Shown here piece by piece: positions 11,089 to 60,045 of a DNA stretch of 64,000 nt. The translations under genes and the position numbers were made by a program. The stretch lies in assembly GCF_025685425.1 (NCBI RefSeq), contig NZ_JAGTAS010000058.1, positions 248,001-312,000 on the forward strand, read 5' to 3'. The number at the start of each line of letters is the position of its first letter. The first letter of the stretch is position 1. The notes under the pieces were generated by a model that searched no databases, had not been told where the DNA came from, and saw only the letters and a program-made list of their open reading frames with translations. This DNA is from Terriglobus albidus (lineage in GTDB: Bacteria > Acidobacteriota > Terriglobia > Terriglobales > Acidobacteriaceae).

Positions 11089-11202
11089 GGAGCAGTTTCC
11101 CTGCAGGTGTAGTGTAGGGCTTTCGCATCTATGGGCGTTTTCCGCAATGAAAACGCCGCTGCAATTCTCTTGCGGGATACCCAGCAACAGGGAAAATGCT
11201 CT
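11089..11202 (+). repeat. Palindromic ~113-bp repeat, copy 1 (forward)
   Basis: Full-length copy of the family found nine times here. Its ends are close to AGAGCATTTTCCCTGT and ACAGGGAAAATGCTCT (16-bp inverted repeats; here the left arm has a few changes). An internal hairpin GGCGTTTTC-loop-GAAAACGCC sits in the middle. It ends at the base before the ATG of the GH130 gene, so it may supply that gene's leader. An in-frame ATG inside it would give a falsely long N-terminus for that protein. Confidence 0.85.
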
Positions 11203-12342
11203 ATGGCTTTGCGGTATACGACATCGACGTTACGTCACCTCTCATGGCTGGTAGCTCTGCTGCCAGCCATGAGTTTTGCCCAAAAGAATTCTGCCCACAG
11301 CAATCCTGCCCAGACCTGGACGATTGGGCCATTCAACCGGCCCGTTTCCTCTCCGATCCTCTCCCCCAGGCCAGCATCTTCTTTCACCGATCCCGTTAGC
11401 GGGCAGACCGTTCACTGGGAGGCTACCAGCACCTTCAACCCCTCTGCTGTTGTCCGTAACGGCAAGGTCTACGTGCTGTATCGCGCGGAAGATGACTCCG
11501 GTGAGATGAAGATTGGCATGCATACTTCGCGTCTGGGCCTGGCCTCCAGTGACGACGGTATTCACTTCACGCGCGAACCTGAACCTGTTTTCTATCCCGC
11601 GGACGATACACAGAAAGATCGCGAGTGGCCCGGCGGCACGGAGGATCCTCGGTTGATCGAGGGCGAAGACGGCGCCTATGTTCTGAGCTATACGCAGTGG
11701 AACCGGAAGAGCACCAGTATCGGGATTGCGACCTCAAAGGATCTTATCCATTGGACCAAGCACGGCCCCATGTTCCCGGGGAAAGATAACGGCGCCTATC
11801 ACAGCTATAAATCCGGAGGCATCGTTACCCGGCTTAGTAACGGCCGCCTGATCGCAGCCAAAATCCAAGGGAAATACTGGATGTATTGGGGCGAGGTGGA
11901 AATTCACCTTGCAACCTCTCCTGACCTGATTCATTGGACGCCGGTGGAGAATGCCGACGGCTCTCCAATCGCAGTATTGAAGCAACGGGTAGCGCTCTTC
12001 GATAGCGCATTCCCTGAGGTCGGCCCTCCGCCGGTGCTGACGGAGCGGGGGATTGTGGTTCTGTATAACGGGAAGAATGGCTCCAGCGATGGAGCTCCCG
12101 GTCTTGATCCCGGAGCTTACTCGGTTGGGCAGGCATTATTCTCGGCGACCGAGCCCGCGAAGCTATTGGAGAGGACCACAGTGCCCTTCCTCAAGCCGGA
12201 GCTGCCGTTCGAGAAGACGGGACAATACGTCACCGGAACGACCTTTGCGGAAGGTCTGGTGTACTTCAGTAACAAATGGTTCCTTTACTACGGTTGCGCT
12301 GACTCGCTGGTGGGAGTCGCGGTGTCGGCTGAACGAAAATAG
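11203..12342 (+). CDS. Secreted GH130-family glycosidase/phosphorylase
   Basis: A 379-residue five-bladed propeller protein of GH130, a family of beta-mannoside phosphorylases and beta-1,2-mannosidases. It shows NPSAVVRNGKVYVLYRAEDDSG, then the family signature GGTEDPRL, and repeated IHWT-type blade motifs. The start is placed at the ATG of MALRYTTSTLRHL because the following segment LSWLVALLPAMSFAQ is a good Sec signal peptide. The longer in-frame extension lies wholly within a repeat element. A signal peptide argues for a periplasmic hydrolase rather than a phosphate-dependent phosphorylase, but linkage and mechanism cannot be assigned. It stands alone, with no receptor or regulator adjacent, and converges on the GH4 gene. 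Confidence 0.82.
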   Translation: MALRYTTSTLRHLSWLVALLPAMSFAQKNSAHSNPAQTWTIGPFNRPVSSPILSPRPASSFTDPVSGQTVHWEATSTFNPSAVVRNGKVYVLYRAEDDSGEMKIGMHTSRLGLASSDDGIHFTREPEPVFYPADDTQKDREWPGGTEDPRLIEGEDGAYVLSYTQWNRKSTSIGIATSKDLIHWTKHGPMFPGKDNGAYHSYKSGGIVTRLSNGRLIAAKIQGKYWMYWGEVEIHLATSPDLIHWTPVENADGSPIAVLKQRVALFDSAFPEVGPPPVLTERGIVVLYNGKNGSSDGAPGLDPGAYSVGQALFSATEPAKLLERTTVPFLKPELPFEKTGQYVTGTTFAEGLVYFSNKWFLYYGCADSLVGVAVSAERK

Positions 12343-12360
12343 CTGGATCCAATCTTTGTT

Positions 12361-12512
12361 TGTCATTTTGCAGTGACCATCGGGAACGGAGAAATCCGCT
12401 TCTCGATCTTCTATGAGTAGACGAAAGACGATCGTGCATCCGCGCGATACCGTTCTTCGCGGTGCGAAGAACGAGGAACAAGCAGATTTCTCCGCTTCGC
12501 TGCGAAATGACA
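12361..12512. repeat. 152-bp element with terminal inverted repeats between convergent genes
   Basis: The left end TGTCATTTTGCAGTGA and the right end TCGCTGCGAAATGACA are reverse complements with a few mismatches. A GGAGAAATC block follows on the left, matched by GATTTCTCC on the right. The centre holds a perfect 10-bp stem (CGTTCTTCGC-ggt-GCGAAGAACG, 12451-12473). It fills the space between the GH130 and GH4 stops. It looks like a dispersed intergenic repeat of a third type and may also work as a bidirectional terminator. Confidence 0.6.
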
Positions 12513-12535
12513 AAAAAATAGTACTTCTGCGTGGT

Positions 12536-13888
12536 CTAGGCCTTCCACCTCATCGTCTTTAGCAACTCTTCCGAGGGCTCCCACTCTCCGATGCTCGGGT
12601 AGAGCAGCATCGCCTTGCGAAGGTCTCGCTCCGAACCACTAACGGCGGCATCAATCGCCGCGCGTTCATACGCCTTCACTGCCAGCACCAGGCCGCGTAC
12701 TGCTTCCGGCAAAGGGCCAACGGGAATAGGAGCAAGTTGGGTTCGGCTGATCTGTGTTGCGGCTTCGATGATGTCTCCCGGAGCGATCTCCGGAATCGTG
12801 TTGCCGTTGCGGAGATTGACGATCACGTTCTCTGGCGTCTCACTGCTCAAGGCGTTCATCACCTGCAACGCGATGCGATGGTAGCCGCTCGCTGCGCGGA
12901 AGGGATCCTCTTGGGGTGCAGCCTCGTCGAATGCCGATTTTCCTTCGCCTTCCAGCTTCATATAAGAACCGGAGCGCAGATTGAGGTAGTCCACATAGGC
13001 CTGCAGTGCGGCCGCATCTTCACCAGCCGTCAATAGCTCGACCAAGCGCTGCATCAGAGACTCGTTCATCGCTGCGATCTGCTCTCCTCGCGTTGCTCCC
13101 TGCTTGCGCTGATTCTCAAGCGCACGGCGACGCGAGTAGTAGAAGAAGAGATATTCGGTCGGAATCAGGCCGATGGCGCGGATCAACTCATGATCGAACA
13201 AAGGAGCGGAGTAGAGCTGCGAAAGAATGGCATCATCCTGCAGGATGCGTGAGGTCACATCTTCACCGCGCAGCGTGACACGGCGTACCCATCCCAGATG
13301 ATTTAAACCGACATACTCGCAGACAAGATCCTTTGCAGGAGCTTGCAATGCTATCTGGATGCGGTGCAATAACTCCGTCGGCGTATCACAGATACCGATC
13401 ACCTTTGCTCCGCTGTGATGCGCGATCGCCTGCGTGATAAGGCCGGCTGGATTCGTGAAGTTGATGATCCATGCGGAAGGGGCAAGCCTTTCCACCAGCT
13501 TCGCCTGTTCAATCGCAATGGGAATCGTGCGCTGCCCCATGGCTACACCACCGGGACCAGTCGTCTCCTGCCCGGGATAACCACACTGGATCGCCGCTCG
13601 CTCATCATGCGCGCGGGTTCCAATACCTCCAACGCGGACACTGTTCAGCACGAAACTCGCCCCATCCACCGCTTCTTCCGGAGACTTTGCAACCGAGATC
13701 TTCAGCGAGCCGGACTCACGCCGTACCACCTCGCGTCCCAGGCGCGCGATCATCTCCGCCCGGTGCTGGTCGACGTCATACAACATCAGTTCTGCGGCAT
13801 CGAGCGTTTGGGCTGACTCATTAATACCGAAGACGACCAACGGCGTGCGAACACCGCCGCCGCCGAGAAACGCAATCTTATGTGGCAT
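12536..13888 (-). CDS. GH4-family NAD-dependent (6-phospho)glycosidase
   Basis: A 450-residue member of GH4, the NAD- and metal-dependent glycosidases that usually act on 6-phosphorylated sugars. The Rossmann start [13 protein letters not shown] is followed by [11 protein letters not shown], the metal-binding Cys167 in ICDTPTE and His197 in GLNHLGW. GAGGAG stands at ideal spacing before the ATG at 13888; a frame start 12 bases earlier is less likely. It overlaps the upstream PfkB gene by 11 bases, so kinase and hydrolase are coupled, fitting 'phosphorylate then cleave'. Whether it is a 6-phospho-beta-glucosidase, a glucosaminidase or another type cannot be told from sequence. Confidence 0.88.
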
Positions 13889-14801
13889 AAAACTCCTCAA
13901 GCGCAGCCTCTACCTCATTGCGGGTAGGAAGCGCGCGCAGAGCGCCGGCGGCACGAGTCGAAAGCGCTCCGCAGACGCAGCCATGCTGCAGGCACTGCTG
14001 CGGGGAAAGCCCTTCCAGCAGAGCGTGGATGAAACCGGCATCGAAGGCATCGCCGGCGCCGGTTGTGTCAACCAGATTTACCAGGGGCGGCGCCGCCCAG
14101 TACTCCTTGCCGTTCGACAGCATCATCGCACCCGCAGGCCCAAGCTTCACCAGGGCATGCTCCACGCCGTGCTGACGGCAGAGCTGCAGGTATGCCTCAG
14201 GGCTGCCGGCAAGCATCATTGACTCTTTTTCGTTGGGCATGACGTAATCGATCATGCGCATCAGCGTCCAGTTCTCCTGGTTCTGCAACCACTCGACATG
14301 ATGTCCGACATCGATGGAGACAGTAGCTCCATGGCCTTTCAGCGCCTTCACGATTCTGGCGCCTGGTCCCGCTTCTAACGGAAGCGCGAGATGGACGTGC
14401 CTGGCGTGCGCAGCTTCCCTTGTTATCTCAGGATGCTGTTCCAGATACGCCGCCAGATGCTCGTTGACTCCGCGATAGGTAAAGAAGGTACGGTCATATG
14501 CGGTGGAGATACTGACAGTCACACCGCTGCGTCCTTTTTCAACGATCAGACTTTCCGCCGAGACGCCAAACTCTTCCAGGCGATCTGCGATGGCCTTATA
14601 GTCACCTTCCCCTACGATACCTGCGAGACGCACCTTCGCTCCCAGCAGTGAGAGCGCGCAGGCGGTTGTGACAGCGCCCCCGCCAAGCTCCCAGGTGTAC
14701 TCGTCGGTAAAGACCTCAGACCCAGGGACAGGCCAGTCCGCAAACCCACTGAAGACATGGTCCAGATAGATCTCACCGATGACTGTGACGTCGTATTTCA
14801 T
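13878..14801 (-). CDS. PfkB-family carbohydrate kinase
   Basis: A 307-residue ribokinase-type sugar kinase. It shows the family's N-terminal GGGAVTTACALSLLG glycine-rich block and the C-terminal anion-hole/catalytic motif DTTGAGDAFDAGF, with Asp as base. The start is ATG at 14801, which overlaps the TGA of the permease gene (ATGA); a much longer frame upstream only overlaps the permease in another frame. It sits between an APC permease and a GH4 enzyme, so it probably phosphorylates the imported sugar that GH4 then cleaves. Substrate unknown; an amino sugar is a possibility given the deacetylase further up. Confidence 0.87.
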   Translation of the reverse strand: MKYDVTVIGEIYLDHVFSGFADWPVPGSEVFTDEYTWELGGGAVTTACALSLLGAKVRLAGIVGEGDYKAIADRLEEFGVSAESLIVEKGRSGVTVSISTAYDRTFFTYRGVNEHLAAYLEQHPEITREAAHARHVHLALPLEAGPGARIVKALKGHGATVSIDVGHHVEWLQNQENWTLMRMIDYVMPNEKESMMLAGSPEAYLQLCRQHGVEHALVKLGPAGAMMLSNGKEYWAAPPLVNLVDTTGAGDAFDAGFIHALLEGLSPQQCLQHGCVCGALSTRAAGALRALPTRNEVEAALEEFYAT

Positions 14802-16150
14802 GCCTGCTGAAATGGCCACTCCTGCGCCCGGTTTGCCTGAAACAAGAAGACCACCATACCGGCGACGATCAGGCCCGCGCCTACGGCGATGTGTTTTAGC
14901 TGGCTGGCGCCAACGATGTAGAGCCATCCCGCCAACGCCACCAGCGCGGGCAGAGGATAGAGCGGCATGCGGAACCTGCCGGGCGCGGGAGGTGACTGCC
15001 GCCGCAGCAACATGACCGCAATGCACTGCCCGAGGAACTGCAGCATGGTCTGAATCACAATCAACCCGGCGATCAGATCGGCCAGCGAGAAGAAGCACAT
15101 CGCCATGGAGGCGATGCCCATGTAGATCAGAGAGACTGTCGGGAAGTGATCCTTGGGATGCACTCTGGCAAAGACCGCGGGGAATTCCCCGCTCGCTGCA
15201 GCCGCATAGGGAATTCGCGAGTACCCAAGCAAAATGGCAAAGGCTGATCCCCAGCTTGCGATGAGGATAAGGATAGAGACAGCCTTCGCTGCCCATGCAC
15301 CATGCACCGCCTGCATGAAGTCGGAGACGATGACCTTCGAGTGCTGTGCCTCGCGCCACGGCAATGTCCCCAGGATCGAGATGTTCATCGCCAGGTACAT
15401 GGCTGCCACCAGCACAATCGAGAGCAGCACAACGCGCGGGATATTTTTCGTTGGATTTCTGACCTCTCCACCCAGCAGGCAGACGTTGTTATAGCCACCG
15501 TAATCGTAGGTCGCGATCAGGGTCGCGGAGCCGAGTCCGAGCCAGAATGTATGGGAGAGATGGAAGGCATGGGGAGGGAAATCGAAGGCGATTGCCGGAT
15601 GGAAATGTGTAATGCCACTCAGGATGATCCAACAACAAGTTGCCAGTACGACCACGGTCACGATGACCGACAACACTCCAATGGAGCGGATCGAGCGGTA
15701 GAGCACCGCCATGTTGACCAGACACAACACCATCGCTATCAGCTTCAACTGAGCAGCCGATAGGGGATGAAAGACGCTTGCGTAGTCCGCAAATCCAACG
15801 GCGCCTGAGGCGATGGAGATAGGCCCCACCAGCAGCGATTGCCAGAGGAAGAGAAAAGCCATCAAACGCCCGAGCGTTTTGGGCCCGAAGGCTGTCAGCA
15901 GGTAGTGATAGGAACCACCGGAGTGCGGCATCCTGGAACCAAGTTCGGCCCACACCATGCCATCGCACAGCGCCAGTAACGCCCCCAGGATCCAGCCGAG
16001 CATCGCCTGCGGGCCGCCCATCGCCGCTAGGGCGAGAGGAATGGTGAGAAAGGGACCTACACCGACCATGTTCAGCACATTGGCCGACAGTGCTCCCCAC
16101 AGACCGATTCCACGATCAAGATGCCCGAGTTGTTGTCCTGCCTTCGCCAT
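14798..16150 (-). CDS. APC-superfamily permease
   Basis: A 450-residue inner-membrane transporter with about twelve hydrophobic helices and the APC N-terminal helix-1 pattern (ALSANVLNMVGVGPFLTIPLAL), plus NPTKNIPRVVLLS and YSRIPYAAAASGEFP, both typical of the amino acid-polyamine-organocation superfamily. It is usually annotated as an amino-acid permease. It is embedded between a secreted deacetylase and a kinase/GH4 pair, 15 bases after the former and overlapping the latter by four. The cargo is therefore more likely an amino sugar or glycoside than an ordinary amino acid. That is inference from position. Confidence 0.83.
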   Translation of the reverse strand: MAKAGQQLGHLDRGIGLWGALSANVLNMVGVGPFLTIPLALAAMGGPQAMLGWILGALLALCDGMVWAELGSRMPHSGGSYHYLLTAFGPKTLGRLMAFLFLWQSLLVGPISIASGAVGFADYASVFHPLSAAQLKLIAMVLCLVNMAVLYRSIRSIGVLSVIVTVVVLATCCWIILSGITHFHPAIAFDFPPHAFHLSHTFWLGLGSATLIATYDYGGYNNVCLLGGEVRNPTKNIPRVVLLSIVLVAAMYLAMNISILGTLPWREAQHSKVIVSDFMQAVHGAWAAKAVSILILIASWGSAFAILLGYSRIPYAAAASGEFPAVFARVHPKDHFPTVSLIYMGIASMAMCFFSLADLIAGLIVIQTMLQFLGQCIAVMLLRRQSPPAPGRFRMPLYPLPALVALAGWLYIVGASQLKHIAVGAGLIVAGMVVFLFQANRAQEWPFQQA

Positions 16151-16165
16151 GGAGAGGGTCCCGAA

Positions 16166-18976: not shown

Positions 18977-19021
18977 CTCCTTGCGGCCGGACCAGGATCC
19001 GGTCGCCTTTATTCACTCAGA

Positions 19022-24568: not shown

Positions 24569-24606
24569 GCACCAGCCCCGGATAAGGAAAGAATTGCCTC
24601 CATCCT

Positions 24607-24718
24607 AGAGCATTTTCCCTGTCGCTGGGTATTCCGGAGAAGCGCGCAGCGGCGTTTTCATTGCGGAAAACGCCCATAAATATGGAAGCCCTACACGGCA
24701 CCTACAGGGAAAATGCTG
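24607..24718 (-). repeat. Palindromic ~113-bp repeat, copy 2 (reverse)
   Basis: Complete copy in reverse orientation, with AGAGCATTTTCCCTGT at the left end and ACAGGGAAAATGCT at the right, and the internal GGCGTTTTC/GAAAACGCC hairpin. TA bases flank both ends (cctAGAGC... and ...GCTGTA). It lies just upstream of the LacI gene, between two minus-strand units. Confidence 0.85.
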
Positions 24719-24837
24719 TAACTGAGACGCACACAAACGTATGCAGAGAACATCGCTCGGGCGCCGCCGTCACGCAAGGTTCCGGGAAACAGAAACGAGG
24801 AATTGTACTGAGACTCGATTCCAAGGCCTCAATAAAC

Positions 24838-26589: not shown

Positions 26590-28914
26590 TCAATAGAGCA
26601 TTTTCCCTGTAGGTGTAGCGTAGGGTTTCTCCGCGGATGGCTCGGCGCTCATCTGTAATGTAAGCGAAGCCCCTTGCAGCATCTCCTGATGCGAGAACGT
26701 CCATTCGGAGTATGCCTTGCCATTCAACTGAACTGATTTCACGTAGAGGTTCGAAGCGGAATTATCCTTCGCCTCGATACTGAAGCGCTTCCCATTCGGC
26801 AGGTGAATCGCAACATGGGAAAACAAGGGAGAGCCGATGGTATAGCTGGGAGTTCCCGGACACCACGGATAAAAACCCATCGCGCTGAGCACATACCAGG
26901 CAGACATCTGACCGGCATCGTCATTCCCGGGAAGCCCATTCGGACCTGGTCCAAAGTCCGTCTTCAGAATCTCGCGCACCCGCTGCTGTGTCTTATATGG
27001 CGCACCGATGAAGTTATAGAGATACGCAATTCCGTGACTCGGCTCATTTCCCTGGTTATAAAGCTTTCTGTCGAAGAGGCCATCCAGCTTTGCGATCATC
27101 GCTTCGTGTCCCCCCAGAGCCTTGCTCAGGCCCTCGATATCATGAGGGACAAAGAAGGTGTACTGCCAGGGTAGCGCCTCCGTAATATAGGTGGCCGGCT
27201 TATCCGGGGCGAATGGAGTTACCCAGCTGCCATCCTCATGTCGTCCACGGACGAATCTGGTTTCGGGGTCAAGAACGTTCTTCCAATTGGCCGAGCGCTT
27301 GAACAGACGATCGGCATCTTCTTTATGCCCCAGGGCTGCGGCAAACTGCGCGACGACATAGTCATCATAGGCATACTCCAACGTCCGAGAGACCTGCTCA
27401 CGTTGATGGAAGGCATCCAGGACTTCATCTTCCAGTGGAATATAACCATACTTCTTATACGAGACCAACGCCCTCCGCCCCTTCCCTTCCACGTAATCAG
27501 CATGAGGAGGTGTGATAAACGCATTCTGACGCACCAGGCGATACGCCTCCAACACATCGAAGTTCCGAATCCCCTTGGCATAAGCGTCATAGATCACAGC
27601 AACGGTGTGATCCCCGATCATCTCTGAGGTGTAGCTGTTCCACGTAGGAAAGATTGGCAGAAAGCCGCCCTGAGTCCCTTTATCGACGAGGCTCTGCACC
27701 ATCTCCCCATCGCGTTTGGGGTCGAGAATCGTAAGCAACGGATGTAGCGAACGGAAGCTATCCCACAACGAGAAGTCGTCGTAATAGTCTGTGCCCGGAC
27801 GTGTGTGGTGCAGCTTCCCTTCCTGACCGAATCCGTTATAGGTTCCGTCGGCATCGCTCACGATACGCGGGGCCAGTGAGGCATGGAACAACGCGGTATA
27901 AAACATCTTCCGCTGTTCTGCTGTGCCCCCGGCGATCTCAATGCGTCCGAGATAGTCACGCCATGCGGCCTCTGCCTGTCGGCGGATGGCCTCAAGCTCC
28001 CAGCCAGGCTCCTCGGCGTTGAGGTTCTTCTCGGCTTCCTCAAGGCTGCTAAATGAGGTTCCAACCTTTACAACAACGGTCTTCGGTGTGTTGTCAGCAA
28101 AAGTTACGAACCCTCCCAGGCGCTCACATCCGGAGCCTTGGGTATGGCCATGCGGAACCACTGTTTTCCCGCACCATGTTCCAAATTCCTGCACCTCTTC
28201 GCGGAACTTGATAACGAAATATCCGTTGAAACCCGCGGACTTTCCTGCTCCCTGATACATGCGTACTACCGGGTTGTAGCCGACAATCTCCTTCTTCTCG
28301 GGGTGCACCTCAACAAATCCCTGCCCAGGCCTAACGTTCGGCTCGACCAGCAGATTGTGTTTGCCATGTTCCGGATAGGTAATGCGCAGCATTCCTGCCC
28401 GCGTCGTTCCGGCAAGCTCAGCTTTCAGATCGTAATCATCCAGATGAACGGAGTAGTACGCCGGAGACATGATCTCCGAGGCATGCTTGTAGGAGGAACC
28501 ACGCTCTTCCGGGCTTGCCTTAATTGGCCCGACCGTCGGCATCAGGGTTGCGGTCCCATAGTCCTGTGTGCAGCTTCCGCTAAGCCAGTGGCTCCCGCGG
28601 AAGCCGGTAATCTTTGCATCCTCGTAATAGTAGGGCGAGACACACTTTGCCTCGGTACTCCGAGTCTCAGGAGTCCATCCGGTCATACCGAAAGGCACGC
28701 CCACCACAGGGTAGGTCTGGCCTTCGTTGGATGTACCGATCCTTGGATCTACCAGAGAGAGCGGATCGACCACGGCAAGTGGGCCGATCCGGGATGCCTT
28801 CTGCTGCGAAAGGAGTGGCCCCACAGCTACCGCTGTCACCATGCCCGAAAACACGCCCAAAAAACTCAATCTACACAGAACTGAGTTCGCCCGCCGGATG
28901 TAGATAGCAATCAT
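26590..28914 (-). CDS. GH92 alpha-mannosidase, C-terminus built from a repeat element
   Basis: A 774-residue exported exo-alpha-mannosidase family protein (Ca-dependent, GH92). The two-domain layout is clear. An N-terminal beta-sandwich begins DPRIGTSNEGQTYPVVGVPFGMT. An (alpha/alpha)6 barrel follows with FYTALFHASLAPRIVSD, YYDDFSLWDSFRSLHPLLT, GNEPSHGIAYLYNF and the catalytic region GLPGNDDAGQMSAWYVLSAMGFYP. The start at the ATG of MIAIYIRRANS gives a plausible signal peptide; a GTG eight codons earlier is an alternative. The last ~13 residues (EKPYATPTGKMLY) and the approach to the stop are read from repeat copy 3, so the native end has been replaced. It likely trims alpha-mannose from glycans. 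Confidence 0.88.
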   Translation of the reverse strand: MIAIYIRRANSVLCRLSFLGVFSGMVTAVAVGPLLSQQKASRIGPLAVVDPLSLVDPRIGTSNEGQTYPVVGVPFGMTGWTPETRSTEAKCVSPYYYEDAKITGFRGSHWLSGSCTQDYGTATLMPTVGPIKASPEERGSSYKHASEIMSPAYYSVHLDDYDLKAELAGTTRAGMLRITYPEHGKHNLLVEPNVRPGQGFVEVHPEKKEIVGYNPVVRMYQGAGKSAGFNGYFVIKFREEVQEFGTWCGKTVVPHGHTQGSGCERLGGFVTFADNTPKTVVVKVGTSFSSLEEAEKNLNAEEPGWELEAIRRQAEAAWRDYLGRIEIAGGTAEQRKMFYTALFHASLAPRIVSDADGTYNGFGQEGKLHHTRPGTDYYDDFSLWDSFRSLHPLLTILDPKRDGEMVQSLVDKGTQGGFLPIFPTWNSYTSEMIGDHTVAVIYDAYAKGIRNFDVLEAYRLVRQNAFITPPHADYVEGKGRRALVSYKKYGYIPLEDEVLDAFHQREQVSRTLEYAYDDYVVAQFAAALGHKEDADRLFKRSANWKNVLDPETRFVRGRHEDGSWVTPFAPDKPATYITEALPWQYTFFVPHDIEGLSKALGGHEAMIAKLDGLFDRKLYNQGNEPSHGIAYLYNFIGAPYKTQQRVREILKTDFGPGPNGLPGNDDAGQMSAWYVLSAMGFYPWCPGTPSYTIGSPLFSHVAIHLPNGKRFSIEAKDNSASNLYVKSVQLNGKAYSEWTFSHQEMLQGASLTLQMSAEPSAEKPYATPTGKMLY
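26595..26634 (+). repeat. Palindromic repeat, copy 3 (forward, left half only)
   Basis: Only the left ~40 bases of the family are present: AGAGCATTTTCCCTGTAGG and GTGTAG...TAGGG. A TA flank is at the left. The piece lies inside the 3' end of the GH92 reading frame. Confidence 0.8.
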
Positions 28915-28944
28915 TGAAACGTATGACCCTCTCACCACTGTTCT

Positions 28945-29018
28945 AGAGCATTTTCCCTGTCGTCATTGTGGAAACGCCCATAGATGCAGAAACCCTACTC
29001 TACACAGGAAAATACTCT
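28945..29018 (-). repeat. Palindromic repeat, copy 4 (reverse, internally deleted)
   Basis: A 74-bp copy with both terminal repeats (AGAGCATTTTCCCTGT; ACAGGAAAATACTCT, one base short and one changed). It lacks the inner ~35 bases that hold one arm of the central hairpin. TA flanks are on both sides (tcTAGAGC, ACTCTAtc). It sits between the GH92 start and TonB receptor 2. Confidence 0.8.
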
Positions 29019-44865: not shown

Positions 44866-44889
44866 CGTGAGCTCCCTGTTGTGATTGCT

Positions 44890-45002
44890 AGAACATTTTC
44901 CCTGTTGCTGCGTATCCCAAAAGAGGAGTGCAGCGGCGTTTTCATTACGGAAAACGCCATAGATGCGGACCCCCTACACTCCACCTACAGGGAAAATGCT
45001 CT
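44890..45002 (-). repeat. Palindromic ~113-bp repeat, copy 5 (reverse)
   Basis: Complete copy, with AGAACATTTTCCCTGT left and ACAGGGAAAATGCTCT right, and the central GGCGTTTTCATTACGGAAAA half of the hairpin. TA on both flanks. Its right end forms part of the stop codon of the GH27 gene (45001-45003). Confidence 0.85.
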
Positions 45003-46194
45003 ACTGCGATACCTTCAAGAAAACGACTCCGTGTGCCGGGACTGTGGCCTGGAAGGAACTCTTCACATTCTTAAGCTCTTCCCCTTTCCACAGATCACGC
45101 GCTTTTACCGGACCGGTAAAGCCCAGAGTGCCGAAGTCGACTGTCGTTGTAAGAGCGGAGTGGTGCCGATTGAAGATACCCACCGCCTGCGATCCATCCG
45201 CAAGATGACGAGACCAGACCTCAATCGGACCTTCAGTGCTGACCCGATCCCCCTGCTTCCCTGCCGCATCCTGATCGACAGCGATGACTTCCTTGTTGGT
45301 CAACAGAGCGAGTGTCTCGGGAGTCATGGAGGAGAGATCGTTCCCGGCAAGCAGCGGCGCCGCGAGAATTGCCCAAAGGCTCATGTGAGTTCGGTACTCG
45401 TCGGTTGTCATACCGCCGTTCCCGACCTCGAGCATGTCAGGATCGTTCCAGTGCCCAGGTCCAGCAAACCGCGCAAGCCCAGCCTGGCTGAAACCGATCT
45501 CCGCCATCTTTGCGTACTTGTCGGAGATGTCGCCCGTCGTCCGCCAGAGATTCCCGCCGACCTCAGTGCCCCACCGCCATACAGCATCCTGACCATACTG
45601 GCAGAGGCCATAGATGATGGGACGGCCGGTATTGCGAAGCGCGACATCCATCTTCTTATAGGAGTCGATCATGATCTTGTGTGCTTCTTCAGGATTACTT
45701 GCAGCCTTCATCTGCTCTTTCAAGCCGCATAGATCGTACTTCAGATAGTCAATTCCCCAGGCAGCATAGGTCTTCGCGTCCTGTTCCTCGTGGCCGAGAC
45801 TTCCCTCAAACTTTGCGCAGGTCTGGCTTCCGGGTGAAGAATAGATGCCCAGCTTCAAACCTTTACTGTGGACAAAGTCGGCAAGCGCCTTCATATCGGG
45901 AAACTTGCTGTTGGTTTGAATATTGCCGTTGGCATCCCGTCCTGCTTCCCAGGTGTCATCGATGTTGATGTAGACATAGCCCGCGTCGCGCATGCCGCTG
46001 GAGACCATCGCCTCCGCTTGTGCCCGGATAACAGCATCATCCACTTTGTTTCGAAAATGATTCCAGCTATTCCATCCCATTGGTGGACGCTGAGCAAGCT
46101 GATTGGAACTGTTTTGTGCTTGCGCACAAGGCAAAGCAGAGCAAAGCGCCAAAGCGGTAGCGCCAAATACAGAAATGCGATGCAACAGAGACAT
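45001..46194 (-). CDS. Alpha-galactosidase, GH27
   Basis: A 397-residue exported GH27 enzyme that removes terminal alpha-galactose. A Sec signal (ending PCAQAQ) is followed by the family start QRPPMGWNSWNHF, NIDDTWEAGRD, the nucleophile Asp154 in DYLKYDLCG, WRTTGDISDK with the acid/base Asp222, and GHWNDPDMLEVG. The C-terminal sandwich runs from about 310. It is the gene after TonB receptor 3, but a strong terminator sits between them, so it may be partly uncoupled. The final TAG overlaps the end of repeat copy 5. Confidence 0.93.
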   Translation of the reverse strand: MSLLHRISVFGATALALCSALPCAQAQNSSNQLAQRPPMGWNSWNHFRNKVDDAVIRAQAEAMVSSGMRDAGYVYINIDDTWEAGRDANGNIQTNSKFPDMKALADFVHSKGLKLGIYSSPGSQTCAKFEGSLGHEEQDAKTYAAWGIDYLKYDLCGLKEQMKAASNPEEAHKIMIDSYKKMDVALRNTGRPIIYGLCQYGQDAVWRWGTEVGGNLWRTTGDISDKYAKMAEIGFSQAGLARFAGPGHWNDPDMLEVGNGGMTTDEYRTHMSLWAILAAPLLAGNDLSSMTPETLALLTNKEVIAVDQDAAGKQGDRVSTEGPIEVWSRHLADGSQAVGIFNRHHSALTTTVDFGTLGFTGPVKARDLWKGEELKNVKSSFQATVPAHGVVFLKVSQ

Positions 46195-46270: not shown

Positions 46271-46284
46271 GAGGTAACCAACGT

Positions 46285-49887: not shown

Positions 49888-49933
49888 TACAACTTCCTTT
49901 CGCGCCTCAGATGTCGGTCCTAAGCCAGTGAGT

Positions 49934-49949
49934 ATGAATACGTATACAA
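49934..49949. promoter_or_regulatory. LacI-type operator, receptor 3 side
   Basis: ATGAATACGTATACAA matches the palindrome ATGTATACGTATACAT at 14 of 16 positions, 47 bases upstream of the receptor ATG. The same motif occurs at 41405 and 50123. Confidence 0.6.
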
Positions 49950-50109
49950 CTCGCGAAACGTATTTATGCATTCAGAGGAGCGGGCATCATCGTGCGTGAT
50001 CCATTCAGCCTTTGTCAATGAAAAATTTTCTCTGTAAAAACATGCTTTCAGGAATGAATCGCCTCAGAAGCCAGCCCCAGCGTCCGATTACGGAAACCCC
50101 AAATCTTTC

Positions 50110-50138
50110 TTGACAGTGTTTCTTGCACACGTATACAT
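50110..50138 (+). promoter_or_regulatory. Promoter overlapping LacI-type operator, GH29/GH105 side
   Basis: TTGACA (50110-50115), a 16-base spacer and TATACA (50132-50137) form a promoter. The operator-like TTGCACACGTATACAT (50123-50138; 13 of 16 to the consensus palindrome) covers the -10 element, so binding would block polymerase. Confidence 0.58.
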
Positions 50139-50293
50139 TTCTGTGGCATTTTCCTCCTCTTCCCTAAGAAAATCCGCCCGGCCGCCAGGATTTCATTGAC
50201 CATCCTTTGATGGTTAATGAAAAATGCTTTTCATATTTGACAATCGCCTATCGCCACAGCTAACCGTCTTACATCGCTTCAGGAGGAACCTTC

Positions 50294-51649: not shown

Positions 51650-51766
51650 CCAGCAGAATTCGTAACCGCCGCCGGGAACCGCATCTGGAAATAAACCGTG
51701 CGAGACCGGCGGCGGTTTCGTATCAGAAGCCCAGCACTATCGCTATCTGCCCAAAGGAAGACACAC

Positions 51767-52939: not shown

Positions 52940-52958
52940 CAAGACGTCGAGAGCGATG

Positions 52959-53071
52959 AGACCATTTTCCCTGTAGGTGTAGAGCGGGGCTTCCGCATCT
53001 ATGGGCGTTTTCCGCAATGAAAACGCCGCTGCACTCCGCTTCCGGGATACCCAGCAACAGGGAAAATGCTC
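52959..53071 (+). repeat. Palindromic ~113-bp repeat, copy 6 (forward)
   Basis: Complete copy between convergent GH105 and IclR genes. Left end CATTTTCCCTGTAGGTGTAG, right end CAACAGGGAAAATGCTC, full central hairpin. Its last base touches the IclR stop codon. Confidence 0.85.
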
Positions 53072-53875
53072 CTAGACGTGCAGTCCGATCGCTTTCGACA
53101 CTTCCTGTGCCCCGGCACGCAGCATCTCTGTAATGCTTGCCGGAGAGATATGAGCATCCATGTGGTCGATGTACGGAATGGTGATCGCCGCGATGGCTGA
53201 GCCGGTGTGATCCAAAACGGGGAAACTGAAGTTGACTACGCCGCGTACCTGGTAGCTCTCGCGCTTCTCGAACCCTTTCTTCTGGATGAGCGCCAGATGG
53301 GCTTCGAGGTTCTTCGGCGGTTTGCGGCCGGTCTCACGCTGCCACTCCGTCAAGGTCCGCTCCTGCTCCGCCTTATTCTGGTGAGCCAGGATGACATATC
53401 CGGACGAAGCCTCCATGATATCGACCGTCGAGCCAAGCTTGACGTAGAAGCCAACCGAGGTTGGCGCGTTGACCTGCGCCAGAATCACGACACGGCCGCT
53501 CTCGACGACACCCAGATGGCAGGACTGCATGGTCTGCGACGCCAGGCGGTGCATAACCGGAAGAGCCTCGCTGATAAGACGCTCGGTGGGCGGATGCTCC
53601 TGCACCAGCTTGAAGAGCTTCAGCGTCAGAGAATATTTCTCCGCGCCGGCCTGTGCGATGTATCCCCGATGCTCCAGACAGAGCAACATGCGAAAAATCT
53701 CTGAGACGCTGCGGTTCAACTCTCGCGCGATCTGGCTCATGCTCAGACCGACGGTCTGATGGGCCAAAAGCTCGATCACATCCAGTCCCTTGTCGAGGGC
53801 GGGAGCGGCGTAATCGTTCTTGAGGTTGCGCTTAGTTCGCGGGCTGGCTTGCTTGGCGGTCTGTTTAAGGCTCAT
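53072..53875 (-). CDS. IclR-family regulator of the fucose genes
   Basis: A 267-residue IclR protein: HTH at about 26-70 (LDKGLDVIELLAHQTVGLSMSQIARELNRSVSEIFRMLLCLEHRGYI), then a GAF-like effector domain (MQSCHLGVVESGRVVILAQVNAP; VDIMEASSGYVILA; VRGVVNFSFPVLDHTGSAIAAITIPYI). It lies downstream of two SDR genes of L-fucose breakdown, but two tandem repeats intervene, so it may have its own promoter. Likely role: control of the fucose operons, ligand L-fucose or L-fuconate (inference). Confidence 0.9.
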   Translation of the reverse strand: MSLKQTAKQASPRTKRNLKNDYAAPALDKGLDVIELLAHQTVGLSMSQIARELNRSVSEIFRMLLCLEHRGYIAQAGAEKYSLTLKLFKLVQEHPPTERLISEALPVMHRLASQTMQSCHLGVVESGRVVILAQVNAPTSVGFYVKLGSTVDIMEASSGYVILAHQNKAEQERTLTEWQRETGRKPPKNLEAHLALIQKKGFEKRESYQVRGVVNFSFPVLDHTGSAIAAITIPYIDHMDAHISPASITEMLRAGAQEVSKAIGLHV

Positions 53876-53895
53876 GGGATTTATGTGGATACTTT

Positions 53896-54008
53896 AGAGC
53901 ATTTTCCCTGTTGCTGGGTATCCCGGAGGAGGAGTGCAGCGGCGTTTTCATTGCGGAAAACGCCCATAGATACCGAAGCCCTACTCTACACCTACAGGGG
54001 AAATGCTT
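53896..54008 (-). repeat. Palindromic ~113-bp repeat, copy 7 (reverse)
   Basis: Complete copy, reverse orientation, with TA flanks. First of a head-to-tail pair with copy 8 starting almost immediately, both in the gap between the IclR gene and the L-fucose dehydrogenase gene. Confidence 0.85.
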
Positions 54009-54009
54009 T

Positions 54010-54124
54010 AATCGCATTTTCCCTGTTGCTGGGTATCCCGAAAGAGGAGTGCAGCGGCGTTTTCATTTGCGGAAAACGCCCATAGATGCCGAAGCCCTAC
54101 TCTACACCTACAGGGAAAATGCTT
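54010..54124 (-). repeat. Palindromic ~113-bp repeat, copy 8 (reverse)
   Basis: Second of the tandem pair, over 90% like copy 7 by eye, with one extra T in the central loop and a changed left end (ATCGCATTTTCCC). Ends 23 bases before the stop of the L-fucose dehydrogenase gene. Confidence 0.85.
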
Positions 54125-54147
54125 TCGCCTGGAGCCTGCCCAGCCTG

Positions 54148-54933: not shown

Positions 54934-54942
54934 ATGCGTCCT

Positions 54943-55725: not shown

Positions 55726-55831
55726 TCCCGGAGTTATAGCATCGTAAAAGACCGCTTGCCAAATAAGAATCCGGTGTTTCACACGCCGAGAAAAGGTCGG
55801 CTTGATTACCGTATGCGAAAAAATATTTTTA

Positions 55832-55860
55832 TTGACGAAATACGATAGGAAAACATAAAC
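55832..55860 (+). promoter_or_regulatory. Promoter of the fucU-fucP-fuconate dehydratase operon
   Basis: TTGACG (55832-55837), a 17-base spacer and ATAAAC (55855-55860) lie in the divergent region. A perfect 12-bp A/T palindrome (55819-55830) sits immediately ahead of the -35 and could be a regulator or UP-type element. Confidence 0.5.
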
Positions 55861-56004
55861 TGCCAGCAATTTACCGAGGGGCAGTCTGGACGCGCCCATG
55901 TTGGAGCAAGCGTGACATTGGAGTGCGATAACATGCTCACTGCCATCTGTTTGGGCAGCCCGACGGTCGCGTTACCACATCATCTCTCCCTGCCGAAGGA
56001 CGAG

Positions 56005-56442
56005 ATGCCACTGCCCGCACCGTTAACCACTCTCGGTATACCAGGAAACGTTGAACGTATGCTGCGAACCGGAATCCTCAATCCCAATATCAATTCGCTG
56101 CTTAGCAGAGTCAGGCACACCAATACCCTCGTCATCGCCGACCGTGGCTTTCCCTACTGGCCGATGATCGAGACGGTGGATATCACCCTGGTGGACAACA
56201 TTCCCAGCGTGACCGATGTGCTGGAGGCACTGCGTCCTAACTTTATTGCCGGAAAATGCTGGATGGCGCGAGAGTTCCAGGAGATGAACGATGCGGCAAC
56301 GGTAGCACGGTTCACATCGCTTCTTCCTCCCGTCGGCTGGGAGCCACACATCGATTTCAAGAAGCGGGTTCCGCATGCCATCGGCCTGATCCGAACGGCC
56401 GACACGATTCAGTATGCAAATGTGATTTTGGAGTCTGCCTGA
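56005..56442 (+). CDS. RbsD/FucU-family L-fucose mutarotase
   Basis: A 145-residue RbsD/FucU protein, which interconverts sugar anomers before oxidation or transport. The conserved part runs from MLRTGILNPNINSLLSRVRHTNTLVIADRGFPYWP (general-base His in RHTN; IADRGFP) through VDITLVDNIPSVTDVLEAL to VPHAIGLIRTADTIQYANVIL. The start is the ATG with AAGGA four bases upstream, giving the usual length. A GTG at 55912, with a ribosome site of its own, would add 31 residues and cannot be excluded. It overlaps no gene and is four bases before fuconolactonase. Confidence 0.82.
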   Translation: MPLPAPLTTLGIPGNVERMLRTGILNPNINSLLSRVRHTNTLVIADRGFPYWPMIETVDITLVDNIPSVTDVLEALRPNFIAGKCWMAREFQEMNDAATVARFTSLLPPVGWEPHIDFKKRVPHAIGLIRTADTIQYANVILESA

Positions 56443-56446
56443 CGCG

Positions 56447-57331
56447 ATGCTTCTGGATTCCAACAAGCCTGATGAGATCAACTCCGCGCGCGTCTGCGTG
56501 GATGCACACCATCATCTCTGGGAGTATGACGAGAGCCAGTATGACTGGATCTCCCGGGAGATGCCGGAGCTGCGGCGGGATTTTCTTCCAGCAGACCTGA
56601 AGCTTAGGATGGAAGAGGCAGGCGTCGACGGGGCCGTTACAGTGCAAGCGAGACAAACGATTGGGGAAACAGAATGGCTGCTGAAGCTTGCGGCGCAGCA
56701 TTCCTTCCTTTACGGGGTTGTAGGCTGGGCTCCTATTGCGGAGGACAGCTTCCCTGCGCTTCTGGAGCGCTTCAGTGACGCGCCGAAACTCCTGGGGTTG
56801 CGCCATATCGTCCAGGCAGAACCCGCCGGCTTCCTGGATGCTCCGGCCTTTAACCGCGGTATCGATCGCCTGCAGACCTGCGGCCTTATCTACGACATCC
56901 TGATCTTTCAGCATCAGCTCGAAGAGGCGATCCGTTTCGTCGATCGTCATCCGAACCAGCAGTTCGTTGTCGACCATGCCGCTAAGCCGCGCATCGCTGC
57001 GCGAGAGATCGAGCCCTGGGCGGCCAATCTCCGCGAATTGGCAAAGCGGCCCAACGTCGTCTGTAAAGTCTCAGGTCTGGTGACGGAAGGTGACTGGAAG
57101 TTCTGGTCCACCGAAACGCTTGCGCCGTATCTCGACACTTGTCTTGAAGCCTTTGGTGCAGACAGGCTCATGGCCGGGTCAGATTGGCCTGTGTGCCTTT
57201 TGGCTACAGACTATAAACGGTGGTGGAATTTCCTGCGGGAGTACTTTGCCGCTCTCAGCGATTCCGAGCGGCAGAGCCTCTTTGCCGAAACCTGCTGCCG
57301 CACCTACAAGATTCAAGGAAAGGCGATCTGA
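56447..57331 (+). CDS. L-fuconolactonase (amidohydrolase 2 family)
   Basis: A 294-residue metal-dependent amidohydrolase of the COG3618 type. The His-x-His motif is VDAHHHLWEYDESQYDWI (about 18-35), followed by GLRHIVQAEPAGFL, FVVDHAAKPRI and the late metal Asp in AGSDWPVCLL. This set is typical of L-fucono-1,5-lactonase, which opens the lactone formed by L-fucose dehydrogenase. L-rhamnono-lactonase is the closest alternative, but FucP and fuconate dehydratase follow. Spacing to both neighbours is 2-4 bases. Confidence 0.9.
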   Translation: MLLDSNKPDEINSARVCVDAHHHLWEYDESQYDWISREMPELRRDFLPADLKLRMEEAGVDGAVTVQARQTIGETEWLLKLAAQHSFLYGVVGWAPIAEDSFPALLERFSDAPKLLGLRHIVQAEPAGFLDAPAFNRGIDRLQTCGLIYDILIFQHQLEEAIRFVDRHPNQQFVVDHAAKPRIAAREIEPWAANLRELAKRPNVVCKVSGLVTEGDWKFWSTETLAPYLDTCLEAFGADRLMAGSDWPVCLLATDYKRWWNFLREYFAALSDSERQSLFAETCCRTYKIQGKAI

Positions 57332-57333
57332 CG

Positions 57334-58662
57334 ATGGCCGCTTCACAGCAATCAAACGCACCAGGCATCTTCCCCAAGGGAAACATGGCGGTCTTTGTCC
57401 TCGTGACCGTTCTCTTCTTCCTCTGGGGTATGTCGAATAACCTCACCGACATCCTGGTGCAGCAATTCCAGAAGTCGTTCGAGCTGACGCAGATGCAGGC
57501 CCAGTTGGTGCAGACCTCTGTTTTCTTCGGCTATTTCTGTATGGCCCTGCCGGCAGCCTTCCTGATGGAGCGGCGTGGCTACAAAGCGGGAATCCTGAGC
57601 GGCCTTTTTCTCTTCGGCACTGGCATGTTGATGTTCTGGCCGGCAGCAGTTGTCGGGAAATATTGGACGTTTCTGACGGCCCTCTTCTTTGTCGGCTGCG
57701 GATCAGCCGTTCTCGAAACTGCCGCCAATCCTTTCATCGCGCAGTTTGGCCCATCCGAAACTTCCGTACAACGGCTCAACTTCTCTCAAGCATTCAATCC
57801 CCCTGGAACGATTACCGGTGTCATCCTCGGAGCAACCTTCATCTTCTCCGGTATCGAGCTCAAGCCTGCGCAGATCGCCGCCATGAAGCTCCAGGGAACC
57901 TATCAGAGCTATCTGCACAGCGAGATCATGCGCGTAGTCCCGGTCTATCTCGGACTTGGCTGTGTCGTCTTCTTTCTGGCGTTTCTGATCTGGCGAGTCC
58001 GATTCCCGTCTATCGACGAGTCTGTTGAGGCAGCCGGCGGAGAAGCCGCCATGTTTTCTGATCTGCTGCATGCTCCGCGGCTGTGGTGGTCCGCGGCAGC
58101 TCAATTCTGCTATTGCGGCGCGCAGATCAGCACATGGTCCTCTCTGATCCCTTATCTCCGTCAATACACGACACTTACGGAGAAGAAGGCAGCTTACTGG
58201 CTAATCGGAAATCTAATTGCGTTCTCAGTCGGCCGCTTCGCCGCAACCGCCCTGATGCGCTGGATCCGGCCGATGCGGCTGGTACTCGCCTACGCTGCGA
58301 TGAATCTGTGCCTGCTGTCAGTCTGTATCACCCATCCCAGTCTGGTAGGCGCGGGTGCGATTCTCGCGACCAGCTTCTTTATGGCCCCGATGTTTCCGTC
58401 CATCTTCGCAGTGGGCGTGTCGGACCTCGGCCCAGCCGCGAAGCTTGGCGGCTCCACCATCGTCATGGCAGTCGTGGGAGGCGCGATTATTCCGCCTCTC
58501 CTTGGCTATGTCGCTCATCGCTTCTCCAGTTATGCACTCGGCTACTCCGTTACAGCGGTCTGCTATCTGTTTGTCGCTCTCTACGCGTGGATGATGGCGA
58601 GAAGCATTCCAGTGGCCGAACAAGCAGCTACAGCACAACCCGCAACCGGTATTACCCACTAG
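57334..58662 (+). CDS. fucP: L-fucose permease, MFS FHS family
   Basis: A 442-residue transporter with about twelve helices of the fucose-H+ symporter family. The start MAASQQSNAPGIFPKGN is two bases after the lactonase stop; a longer frame overlaps it. Family marks are TVLFFLWGMSNNLTDILVQQFQKSFELT at helix 1, SVFFGYFCMALPAAFLMERRGYKAGI, GCGSAVLETAANPFIAQFG, NFSQAFNPPGTITG, and FFMAPMFPSIFAVGVSDLG. Located in the inner membrane, it takes in L-fucose with a proton. Confidence 0.93.
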   Translation: MAASQQSNAPGIFPKGNMAVFVLVTVLFFLWGMSNNLTDILVQQFQKSFELTQMQAQLVQTSVFFGYFCMALPAAFLMERRGYKAGILSGLFLFGTGMLMFWPAAVVGKYWTFLTALFFVGCGSAVLETAANPFIAQFGPSETSVQRLNFSQAFNPPGTITGVILGATFIFSGIELKPAQIAAMKLQGTYQSYLHSEIMRVVPVYLGLGCVVFFLAFLIWRVRFPSIDESVEAAGGEAAMFSDLLHAPRLWWSAAAQFCYCGAQISTWSSLIPYLRQYTTLTEKKAAYWLIGNLIAFSVGRFAATALMRWIRPMRLVLAYAAMNLCLLSVCITHPSLVGAGAILATSFFMAPMFPSIFAVGVSDLGPAAKLGGSTIVMAVVGGAIIPPLLGYVAHRFSSYALGYSVTAVCYLFVALYAWMMARSIPVAEQAATAQPATGITH

Positions 58663-58678
58663 TGGAAGGAAACACACC

Positions 58679-60004
58679 GTGAACGATCTTCGCATTGAAC
58701 GTATACGAACTATCGACCTTCGCTTCCCGACATCGCGCGAGGCCATCGGCTCGGATGCGGTCAACAAGGATCCTGACTATTCCGCCGCCTACTGCATCCT
58801 GGAAACGAATTCCGGACTGGAAGGTCATGGACTGACGTTTACTCTCGGACGCGGCACAGACATCGTTGTCCAGGCCCTCGATTACCTGGCTCGAACCATC
58901 AAAGGCCGCACACTTTCCTCCATCGTCTCCAACTTTGCCGCATTCTCCCGCGAGCTTACCGATGAGAGCCAGTTCCGCTGGCTCGGTCCCGAAAAAGGCG
59001 TGATTCACCTTGCCACCGGCGCCCTGATCAATGCGGTATGGGACCTTTACGCCAAGGTGGAGGGTAAGCCGCTTTGGAAGCTGCTGGCGGAAATGGAGAC
59101 CGAACAACTTCTCTCTGCGGTCGACTTCCGGTATATCGACGACGCCATCTCGCGCGATGAAGCGAAAGCGATCCTCGATGCTGGAAAAGCCGGCATGAGC
59201 GAACGCCTTGCCAAGCTCCAGGCGGAAGGCTACCCCGCTTACACCACCTCGGCTGGATGGTTCGGCTTCAGCGACGAAAAGATCAGGCGCCTCTGCCGTG
59301 AGGGCCTGGCCGATGGTTGGACCCATTTCAAGCTGAAAGTCGGCGGCGATCCGGCGGACGACCTGCGCCGCGGGCGCATCGTCCGGGAAGAGATTGGCTG
59401 GGAGAACCGCATGATGGTCGATGCAAACCAGAAATGGGGCGTCACTGAATCCATCGACCGCATTCGCCAGTTACAGGAGCTCGAGCCCTGGTGGATGGAA
59501 GAACCCACCAGCCCCGACGACATCCTTGGCCATGCGCGAATCCGCAGAGAGTGCAAACCGACACGTATTGCTACCGGAGAGCACTGCCATAACCGCGTGA
59601 TGTTCAAGCAGCTCATGCAGGCAGAAGCCATTGACGTCTGCCAGATTGATAGCTGCCGTGTCGCCGGAGTTAATGAGAACATCGCCATCCTGCTGATGGC
59701 AGCGAAGTTCGGCATCCCGGTATGCCCACACGCGGGCGGTGTAGGCCTTTGCGAGTATGTTCAGCACCTCTCGTTCTTCGACTATCTTCGTGTCTCCCAG
59801 AACCTTGAAAACCGGGTGATCGAGTATGTCGACCACCTCCACGAACACTTCCTGCACCCTGTCCGCATCCGCAAGGGCAGATACCTTCTGCCGGAAGCAG
59901 CCGGCTACAGCATTCAGATCTATCCGGAATCGCTGGAGACCTATCAGTATCCCGGCGGCGCCGCGTGGGCCGAACCGTCGTATCAGGAACAGCACGCCCG
60001 CTAG
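58679..60004 (+). CDS. L-fuconate dehydratase
   Basis: A 441-residue enolase-superfamily enzyme that dehydrates L-fuconate to 2-keto-3-deoxy-L-fuconate. GTG start with GGAAGGA upstream. All active-site residues of the characterised Xanthomonas enzyme occur at the same numbers: Lys218/Lys220 (FKLKVGG), Asp248 (VDANQKWG), Glu274 (WMEEPTSPDD), Glu301 (ATGEHCHN) and His351 (CPHAGGVGLCEYVQH). Length and ends also match. Last gene of the operon, with the stop next to repeat copy 9 and a strong terminator beyond. The enzyme for the final cleavage of diketo-deoxyfuconate is not in this window. Confidence 0.96.
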   Translation: MNDLRIERIRTIDLRFPTSREAIGSDAVNKDPDYSAAYCILETNSGLEGHGLTFTLGRGTDIVVQALDYLARTIKGRTLSSIVSNFAAFSRELTDESQFRWLGPEKGVIHLATGALINAVWDLYAKVEGKPLWKLLAEMETEQLLSAVDFRYIDDAISRDEAKAILDAGKAGMSERLAKLQAEGYPAYTTSAGWFGFSDEKIRRLCREGLADGWTHFKLKVGGDPADDLRRGRIVREEIGWENRMMVDANQKWGVTESIDRIRQLQELEPWWMEEPTSPDDILGHARIRRECKPTRIATGEHCHNRVMFKQLMQAEAIDVCQIDSCRVAGVNENIAILLMAAKFGIPVCPHAGGVGLCEYVQHLSFFDYLRVSQNLENRVIEYVDHLHEHFLHPVRIRKGRYLLPEAAGYSIQIYPESLETYQYPGGAAWAEPSYQEQHAR

Positions 60005-60045
60005 AGTATTTTCCCTGTGGGTGTAGTCCAGAGCTTCCACCATAG
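60003..60045 (+). repeat. Palindromic repeat, copy 9 (forward, left part only)
   Basis: The left ~43 bases of the family (AGAGTATTTTCCCTGTGGG, then GTGTAG and CTTCC). It begins within the stop codon of fuconate dehydratase, with TA at the boundary. Confidence 0.75.

Follow-up and report, generated by a model that had tools for sequence, protein, structure and literature searches.

The described element closest in kind to the repeat treated here is the Repeat Unit of Pneumococcus (RUP), a 107-bp element of about 108 copies, which is intergenic, targets TA, carries ends like those of the insertion sequence (IS) IS630 and has no transposase of its own; IS630-Spn1 has been proposed as its mover (PMC2229807, PMC3049150). 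For ISY100 of the IS630 family, in vitro results are described in which cleavage falls at the 3' ends of the element and two bases in from its 5' ends, and nearly all insertions go into TA, which is duplicated (PMC2170065). A preference of IS630 for CTAG is given in the title of a paper cited in this literature. Here, we describe a miniature inverted-repeat transposable element (MITE) of ~112 bp from a stretch of 64,000 nucleotides of the Terriglobus albidus genome (G000:C28:248001-312000, hereafter the window; the genome, G000, comprises 6,104,258 bp). The MITE is very probably a non-autonomous element of the IS630/Tc1 type, which is moved in trans into TA dinucleotides and, where it enters a stop codon, rebuilds a TAG.

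Results

The repeat has the outline TA-GAGCATTTTCCCTGT...ACAGGGAAAATGCTC-TA, and its length is 111–112 bp in 83 of the 105 full copies measured. TA is found at both sides of 65 of these 105 copies and at one side or more of 94. The repeat is short, has no coding capacity, carries terminal inverted repeats and occurs in many copies, which are the characteristics of a MITE. All nine copies claimed for the window in the initial annotation are present at their positions, as six full copies, two partial copies and one internally deleted copy (Table 1). The common ends and the central hairpin that it described were also recovered: AGAGCATTTTCCCTGT at up to 3 mismatches gave 15 matches in the window (mean 0.38 and maximum 3 in 100 shuffles), and the central hairpin GGCGTTTTC..GAAAACGCC has 6 exact matches, all within the six full copies, against 0 in the shuffles. 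However, the repeat is not the full palindrome that was proposed, because unlike sequence lies between the terminal inverted repeats of ~15 bp and the hairpin.

The occupancy of the sites was compared with G002, a relative of ~88% identity, in two pairs of stretches. In the first pair (G000:C28:100001-500000 and G002:C1:2300001-2700000), which is largely collinear with most long blocks 83–90% identical, 16 of the 39 G000 copies correspond to empty sites in G002, where the flanks meet within 14 bp; 4 copies (3 places) have a G002 copy at the same place or within ~10 bp, 3 have otherwise changed flanks, and 16 are not comparable. Among the 47 copies of the second pair, the G002 site is empty for 17 and filled for 5, has changed otherwise for 13 and is not comparable for 12. 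Both pairs thus hold 86 copies, 58 of them comparable, with 33 empty, 9 filled or nearly filled, and 16 showing other local changes. The signature of insertion is TA..TA around the element in the filled site and a single TA in the empty site; at the copy at 44889, G000 reads ..GATTGC TA (element) TA CTGCG.. and G002 reads ..GATTGC TA CTGCG... In the reverse direction, G002 also holds copies that are absent from G000. Two copies at the same gene end, G000:C28:133291-133403 and G002:C1:2645390-2645505, are independent insertions about ten bases apart. At G000:C28 ~142949-142982, where G002 has a full copy, a remnant of 30-odd bases consists of two element ends, as if the middle had been deleted.

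The genomic placement was determined in five 400-kb stretches (three of G000 and two of G002), in which a simple caller based on codon usage, purpose-written for this analysis, predicted the genes. These stretches contain 141 copies, of which 28 that were not full length were dropped and 113 full copies were retained. Just two of the 113 overlap called coding sequence by more than 30%. The location of many copies in stop codons had gone unnoticed in the initial annotation. In the 65 copies with TA at both sides, the flanking bases form YTAR (Y, pyrimidine; R, purine) in 32, one flanking base fits in 33, and RTAY is never found; RTAY accounts for 3529 of the 12,948 eligible TA sites available in the sampled stretches.

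The copies are strongly concentrated at the stop codons of genes. At 40 of the 113 full copies, the flanking TA and the element's opening base together make up exactly the stop codon of the neighbouring gene (strict count, p = 7e-12). Six further full copies, first scored at distance 1, are located at stops with one extra base between, and the total reaches 46 of 113 (~40%) compared with ~13 expected (p = 1.8e-15). The null model, in which noncoding and stop-codon TA sites were weighted by the target matrix obtained from the copies not at stops, places 12.4 copies at stops. The stop copies amount to 38 of 93 in G000 and 8 of 20 in G002. The first inward base of the element is G at 182 and A at 25 of the 226 ends, and therefore TA plus this base is a stop codon on most ends. 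The orientation of the stop copies is mixed, being the same as that of the gene in 20 and opposite in 26. Of the copies in convergent spacers, 19 occupy stops and 5 other places, where the null share is 0.18; the corresponding numbers for spacers between tandem genes are 27 and 43 (null share 0.125).

The excess is confined to the stop codon itself. At 6–60 nt past the stops, 12 copies were found against 14.8 expected, which does not support a general preference for 3' ends. Under the strict count, the contrast with the neighbours at 3–60 nt is weaker (40 against 21, p = 0.002). An open frame of at least 100 codons is ended at 25% of the copy edges and at 7.7% of noncoding TA sides. In G012 and G015, two further genomes of the genus that carry the MITE and for which no genes were called, an edge terminates an open frame longer than 100 codons in 7 of 19 among the listed copies.

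The stop codons at the copies were compared with those of the relative by aligning the last 240 coding bases of the genes to G002, for 11 of the 12 copies at stops in the first G000 stretch, where the one left out has one extra base, and for 16 of 16 in the second. An alignable relative was obtained for 24 genes (9 and 15, respectively), and 3 genes had none. In 23 of the 24 cases, the stop of the relative falls at the same codon position; the last part of the remaining one, D 391955, is unaligned. Three of the 23 sites are filled in both genomes, and 20 are apparently without the element in G002, as judged from the bases displayed after the stop. The codon in these 20 unfilled relatives is TAG in 10, TAA in 6 and TGA in 4; for the TGA cases, G000 presumably started from an ancestral TAA or TAG. 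The 20 include D 47277, with a possible decayed copy after the stop, and A 53536, where the last ten bases are unaligned and the position is projected. In the reverse test of five G002 stop copies, G000 stops at the same codon in four, one of which is a shared copy already counted; at one reverse-tested site, the G002 copy lies in the stop and G000 has its own copy about ten bases further.

The spread of the MITE was determined over the genome and the genus. In G000, 335 + 327 matches (662) to GAGCATTTTCCCTGT at up to 2 mismatches were found, whereas the pattern read backwards gave 1 + 3. In 1.2 Mb of G000, 116 copies were detected for 171 ends, that is, 0.68 detectable copies per terminal match, from which ~450 copies are extrapolated for the genome. 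The window is not special in this respect, as the surrounding 400 kb contains 39 copies. Among the 19 genus genomes examined, matches to the 20-base end number 514 in G000, 336 in G002, 280 in G012, 265 in G015 and 1 in G014, with none in the remaining 14; the MITE is therefore abundant in four of them, and a covariance model gave at least 150 matching candidates in each of these four. Only two of 42 more distant genomes have matches to the 20-base end (3 and 1). The loci L032 and L038 of G034, which belongs to another genus of the family, hold isolated sequences that closely resemble the 20-base end, with no MITE body attached. When 17.5 kb of the window was compared, the long matched pieces of G002, G012 and G015 were 85–90% identical, and in the eight further members of the genus that were tested the best matches did not exceed 76%, which indicates that the carriers are nearer to each other than to the rest of the genus. 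A plasmid collection queried with one copy gave no match, and Rfam gave 0 matches at the gathering score in the window. The initial annotation regarded the repeats as possibly mobile, took a mere handful of copies in the genome as an argument against this, and pointed to orthologous loci with filled and empty TA sites. The hundreds of copies, the empty sites in a close relative and the abundance confined to four of the 19 genomes bear out the mobility.

No transposase gene accompanies the copies in the window, where the initial annotation had regarded them as non-autonomous for this reason: the matches of G000 to DDE_3 (IS630-type transposases) and to Y1 transposases all fall outside it. DDE_3 matches number 2 in G000, 2 in G002, 0 in G012 and 1 in G015, and the MITE ends are missing from all five loci when up to 3 mismatches are allowed, with the assemblies of G012 and G015 being fragmented. 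The MITE is thus an orphan, in that the search of the four carriers turned up no transposase with its ends. The carrier G015 has an IS630 element of the same branch (L039, G015:C122), which begins with TA-GAGCA and then differs from the MITE; it was rejected as the source, since it shares only the GAGCA of the ends. The IS630 elements of G000 and G002 (L040-L042), whose ends are TTGATTCCTG or TTGCTTCCTG and unlike those of the MITE, were likewise rejected. IS427-type elements (PF13340) are lacking in G000, and G012 has one match (L124).

Relatives of L039 were found in 95 of 399 genomes of the class. Among them is L127, found in G064, a genome that belongs to a different family of the class; the element measures 1031 bp and has two frames, and its DDE frame matches DDE_3 with an E-value of 6.9e-39. 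The ends of L127 are GAGCATTTCTCCTGTTACTG and GAGCATTTCTCCTGATGGTG, where those of the MITE are GAGCATTTTCCCTGTTGCTG and GAGCATTTTCCCTGTAGGTG; the two pairs differ by 2 and 3 mismatches in 15, share the same left/right asymmetry, and are nearly the same over 20 bp. When 93 loci, including relatives from named genomes (18 of those 80 loci were left out), were scanned for TA-bounded inverted ends with no sequence assumed, 53 gave a pair. A GAGC start is present on at least one end in 46 of these 53 related elements, a count made with no shuffled control, in which L170 and L212 include same-genome copies and L125 and L155 look like one place. Given the ends of L127 and the GAGC starts, the most fitting reading of the MITE is that it belongs to this IS630 branch as a non-autonomous element. 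The IS630/Tc1-type origin proposed in the initial annotation agrees with this and with the duplicated TA at the filled sites, and an element that combines the same ends with a transposase, which it had suggested seeking, exists elsewhere in the class and was found in none of the four carriers.

Nine arrays of 2–4 copies are present among the 141 copies, all head to tail (L293, L286, L296, L303 and others). The GA of GAGC is missing from the second copy at each of the 12 junctions, giving GCTCTA-R-TCGCATTT; the order is TA, zero or one base, TC or CC, and then GC. The junction pattern has 35 matches in G000, 3 in G012, 3 in G015 and none in G002, although two copies lie side by side in G002 at least once (1:2884157-2884378). 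Identity is 92–100% in 9 of 11 neighbouring pairs and 79% and 85% in the other 2, where random pairs have a mean of 83%. An origin of the junction from a flanking host base found no support when the flanks were compared by eye. The two bases missing at the junction are those inside which the ISY100 enzyme cuts. In an 80-copy alignment, the terminal repeats vary in matched pairs, TTTTTCC with GGAAAAA and TTTTCAC with GTGAAAA, which suggests subfamilies or homogenisation of the ends.

Table 1. Copies of the MITE in the window (positions are those of the window; G002 is the relative compared).
Feature	Position	Strand	Remark
Full copy	11088..11203	-	outer TA kept at one side only
Full copy	24606..24720	+	TA at both sides
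Half copy	26594..26670	-	minus-strand open reading frame 26590-28938 reads into the half copy and takes its last residues from there
Internally deleted copy	28944..29018	+	no element at the same place in G002
Full copy	44889..45003	+	right edge is the TAG stop of minus-strand gene 45001-46194 (Melibiase_2)
Full copy	52957..53073	-	at the stop of minus-strand IclR-type gene 53072-53875, with one extra base (TAG-GAGC)
Full copy	53895..54010	+	first of a head-to-tail pair; one copy at this place in G002
Full copy	54009..54126	+	second of a head-to-tail pair; junction TAATCGC
Partial copy	60002..60040	-	edge is the TAG stop of plus-strand gene 58679-60004 (MR_MLE_C)

As shown in Table 1, the copies listed separately at 53896 and 54010 in the initial annotation are present and can now be described as a head-to-tail pair with the special junction. 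The G002 counterpart of the copy at 44889 is an empty TA with a native TAG, the flanks of the copy at 52957 meet in G002 without a copy, and at the partial copy at 60002 G002 has TAA and no copy. The half copy at 26594 encodes the C-terminus of a gene, which ends in ..SAEKPYATPTGKMLY (..EKPYATPTGKMLY) here and in ..SIEKH* in G002; we infer an insertion at or near the stop that was followed by a partial deletion.

Discussion

The enzyme of the MITE can only be inferred, because no matching transposase was found in any carrier; by analogy with the IS630 family, cut-and-paste chemistry and a transposase acting in trans would account for the sites observed. A transposase supplied in trans, which is no longer found in the carriers, would move the MITE into TA with a preference for YTAR, and the insertion would leave TA on both sides. 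Since each end reads TA-G inward, insertion into TAA or TAG in either orientation would give an in-frame TAG. The gene keeps its length because TA and the G of the element rebuild the stop in either orientation. An insertion of this kind leaves the gene and all that follows the stop intact, and therefore selection must contribute to the excess at stops.

Whether directed insertion or selection is the cause of the stop excess is about evenly balanced. Insertions may occur on any YTAR, with the harmful ones in genes, promoters, ribosome sites and terminators being lost, so that the excess reflects survivorship; the chance of this is judged to be as good as that of its being wrong. The rebuilding of the stop by the G or A at most element ends and the near-absence of copies within coding sequence accord with such survivorship, and so does the stop share, which is slightly higher in the more diverged copies (18/38, 16/38 and 12/37 from the most to the least diverged third). 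However, the bias is strongest in convergent spacers (19 against 5), where no promoter is needed, no excess is seen at 6–60 nt beyond the stops, and the least diverged third still has 12 of 37 copies at stops. The peak at the stop, the lack of an excess just past it and the convergent bias are not predicted by the avoidance of promoters alone and favour targeting. Alternatively, the IS630 lineage may be directed to stop codons by a transposase or host partner that senses gene ends, for which the candidate cues would be translation termination, transcription or the sequence around TAR; we hold this only tentatively, at somewhat below an even chance.

Other origins of the repeat and of its placement are far less probable. 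A repeat of the repetitive extragenic palindrome type (REP/REPIN), moved by a Y1 transposase (RAYT, REP-associated tyrosine transposase), would also be palindromic and intergenic with hundreds of copies, and Y1 genes are present in the four carriers (10, 7, 1 and 4 matches). This origin is barely credible, because the copies are flanked by TA on either side where the relative has just one TA, and their ends match IS630 elements; moreover, of the 20 of 22 Y1 loci scanned (the other 2 matches being without a locus), 4 have a copy in the flanks and none is bracketed by copies. It is similarly hard to believe that the excess is an artefact of gene calling, in which the TAG at an edge ends one frame in three and truncations imitate insertions at stops. 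The caller is simple, and the frame-ending edges alone (25% against 7.7%) cannot tell truncation from stop insertion, but 23 of the 24 alignable relatives stop at the same codon.

The repeats might also be kept for a role as a hairpin behind the stop, ending or protecting the mRNA, which we regard as improbable. All seven strands folded are more stable than their shuffles (z from -3.0 to -7.2), and the terminal pairs co-vary, with 25 cells changed on both sides compared with 7.5 in column shuffles, in a structure alignment of 80 of the 109 listed copies. However, shifting the pairing a few positions leaves 4 to 18 such cells, the terminal repeats of a transposon pair in any case, both orientations are used, and the RNAalifold consensus of the 80 copies reaches only -3.86 kcal/mol. 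Within 44000-61000, the range scanned (the copies from 11089 to 28945 lie outside it), no terminator-like site falls on a full copy and the number of such sites is at the level of shuffles. The initial suggestion of transcript ends or mRNA-stability elements is thus left unsupported.

Several observations weigh against the interpretation as an IS630-type MITE that settles in stop codons. No transposase with the MITE ends was found in any of the four carriers. The gene calls rest on the simple home-made caller, and the strict count contrasts weakly with the next 30 nt (40/54, null 0.62, p = 0.04), the contrast being weaker because the six copies with one extra base then count as neighbours. The stop share does not rise in the least diverged copies, and this age trend, if anything, runs against pure targeting. 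TGA, which contains no TA, is the codon in 4 of the 20 unfilled relatives, and B 134205, one of the five G002 copies, has no stop at the projected codon in G000. The autonomous relatives, of which 45 of the 53 elements were used, show no distinct signal at stop codons: among the 80 flanking sides with sufficient sequence, 12 terminate an open frame of at least 100 codons at the edge, where the control of 7.7% (1937/25044 noncoding TA sides of G000 and G002) comes from hosts of different base composition and is unfair.

The reading of TA + G as TAG in either orientation suggests a simple explanation for the tolerance of so many insertions by a compact genome. Within the sampled 1.2 Mb of G000, gene stops are occupied by 38 copies, and 604 called genes end in TAA or TAG; the element is thus frequently the source of the stop codon and the start of the 3' untranslated region. 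Were insertion directed, the MITE would represent a transposon that targets gene ends at large and not a single site, and stop codons would serve such a lineage as a genome-wide safe harbour.

Among the known systems, RUP is the closest in its size, intergenic seat, TA target, IS630-like ends and lack of its own transposase, as far as it is described in the excerpts of PMC2229807 and PMC3049150, in which placement at stop codons is not reported. It differs in its sequence and host, the MITE having more copies and many clean empty sites, and the partner IS of RUP is described from the same genome, where no partner was found in the carriers of the MITE. Within the IS630/Tc1-mariner family, ISY100 has the same TA target, IS630 is credited with the CTAG preference and L127 has the same ends, but the MITE lacks a transposase gene. 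The Correia elements of Neisseria, as outlined in the sources at hand, are likewise small, with TA termini and copies on the scale of hundreds; they differ by longer terminal repeats and unrelated sequence, and carry known promoters and RNase III sites. In the titles and abstract openings of the papers listed by searches on IS630, MITEs and RUP with stop codons, and on MITEs in Acidobacteria and Terriglobus, no stop-codon placement appears, nor does it in the excerpts consulted, part of which were selected with stop codons in view. Tn7 also uses a harmless landing place at the 3' end of a gene, attTn7, where it recognises one sequence via a dedicated protein, whereas the MITE hits many genes and itself rebuilds the stop codon. 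IS630-derived MITEs as a kind are already known.

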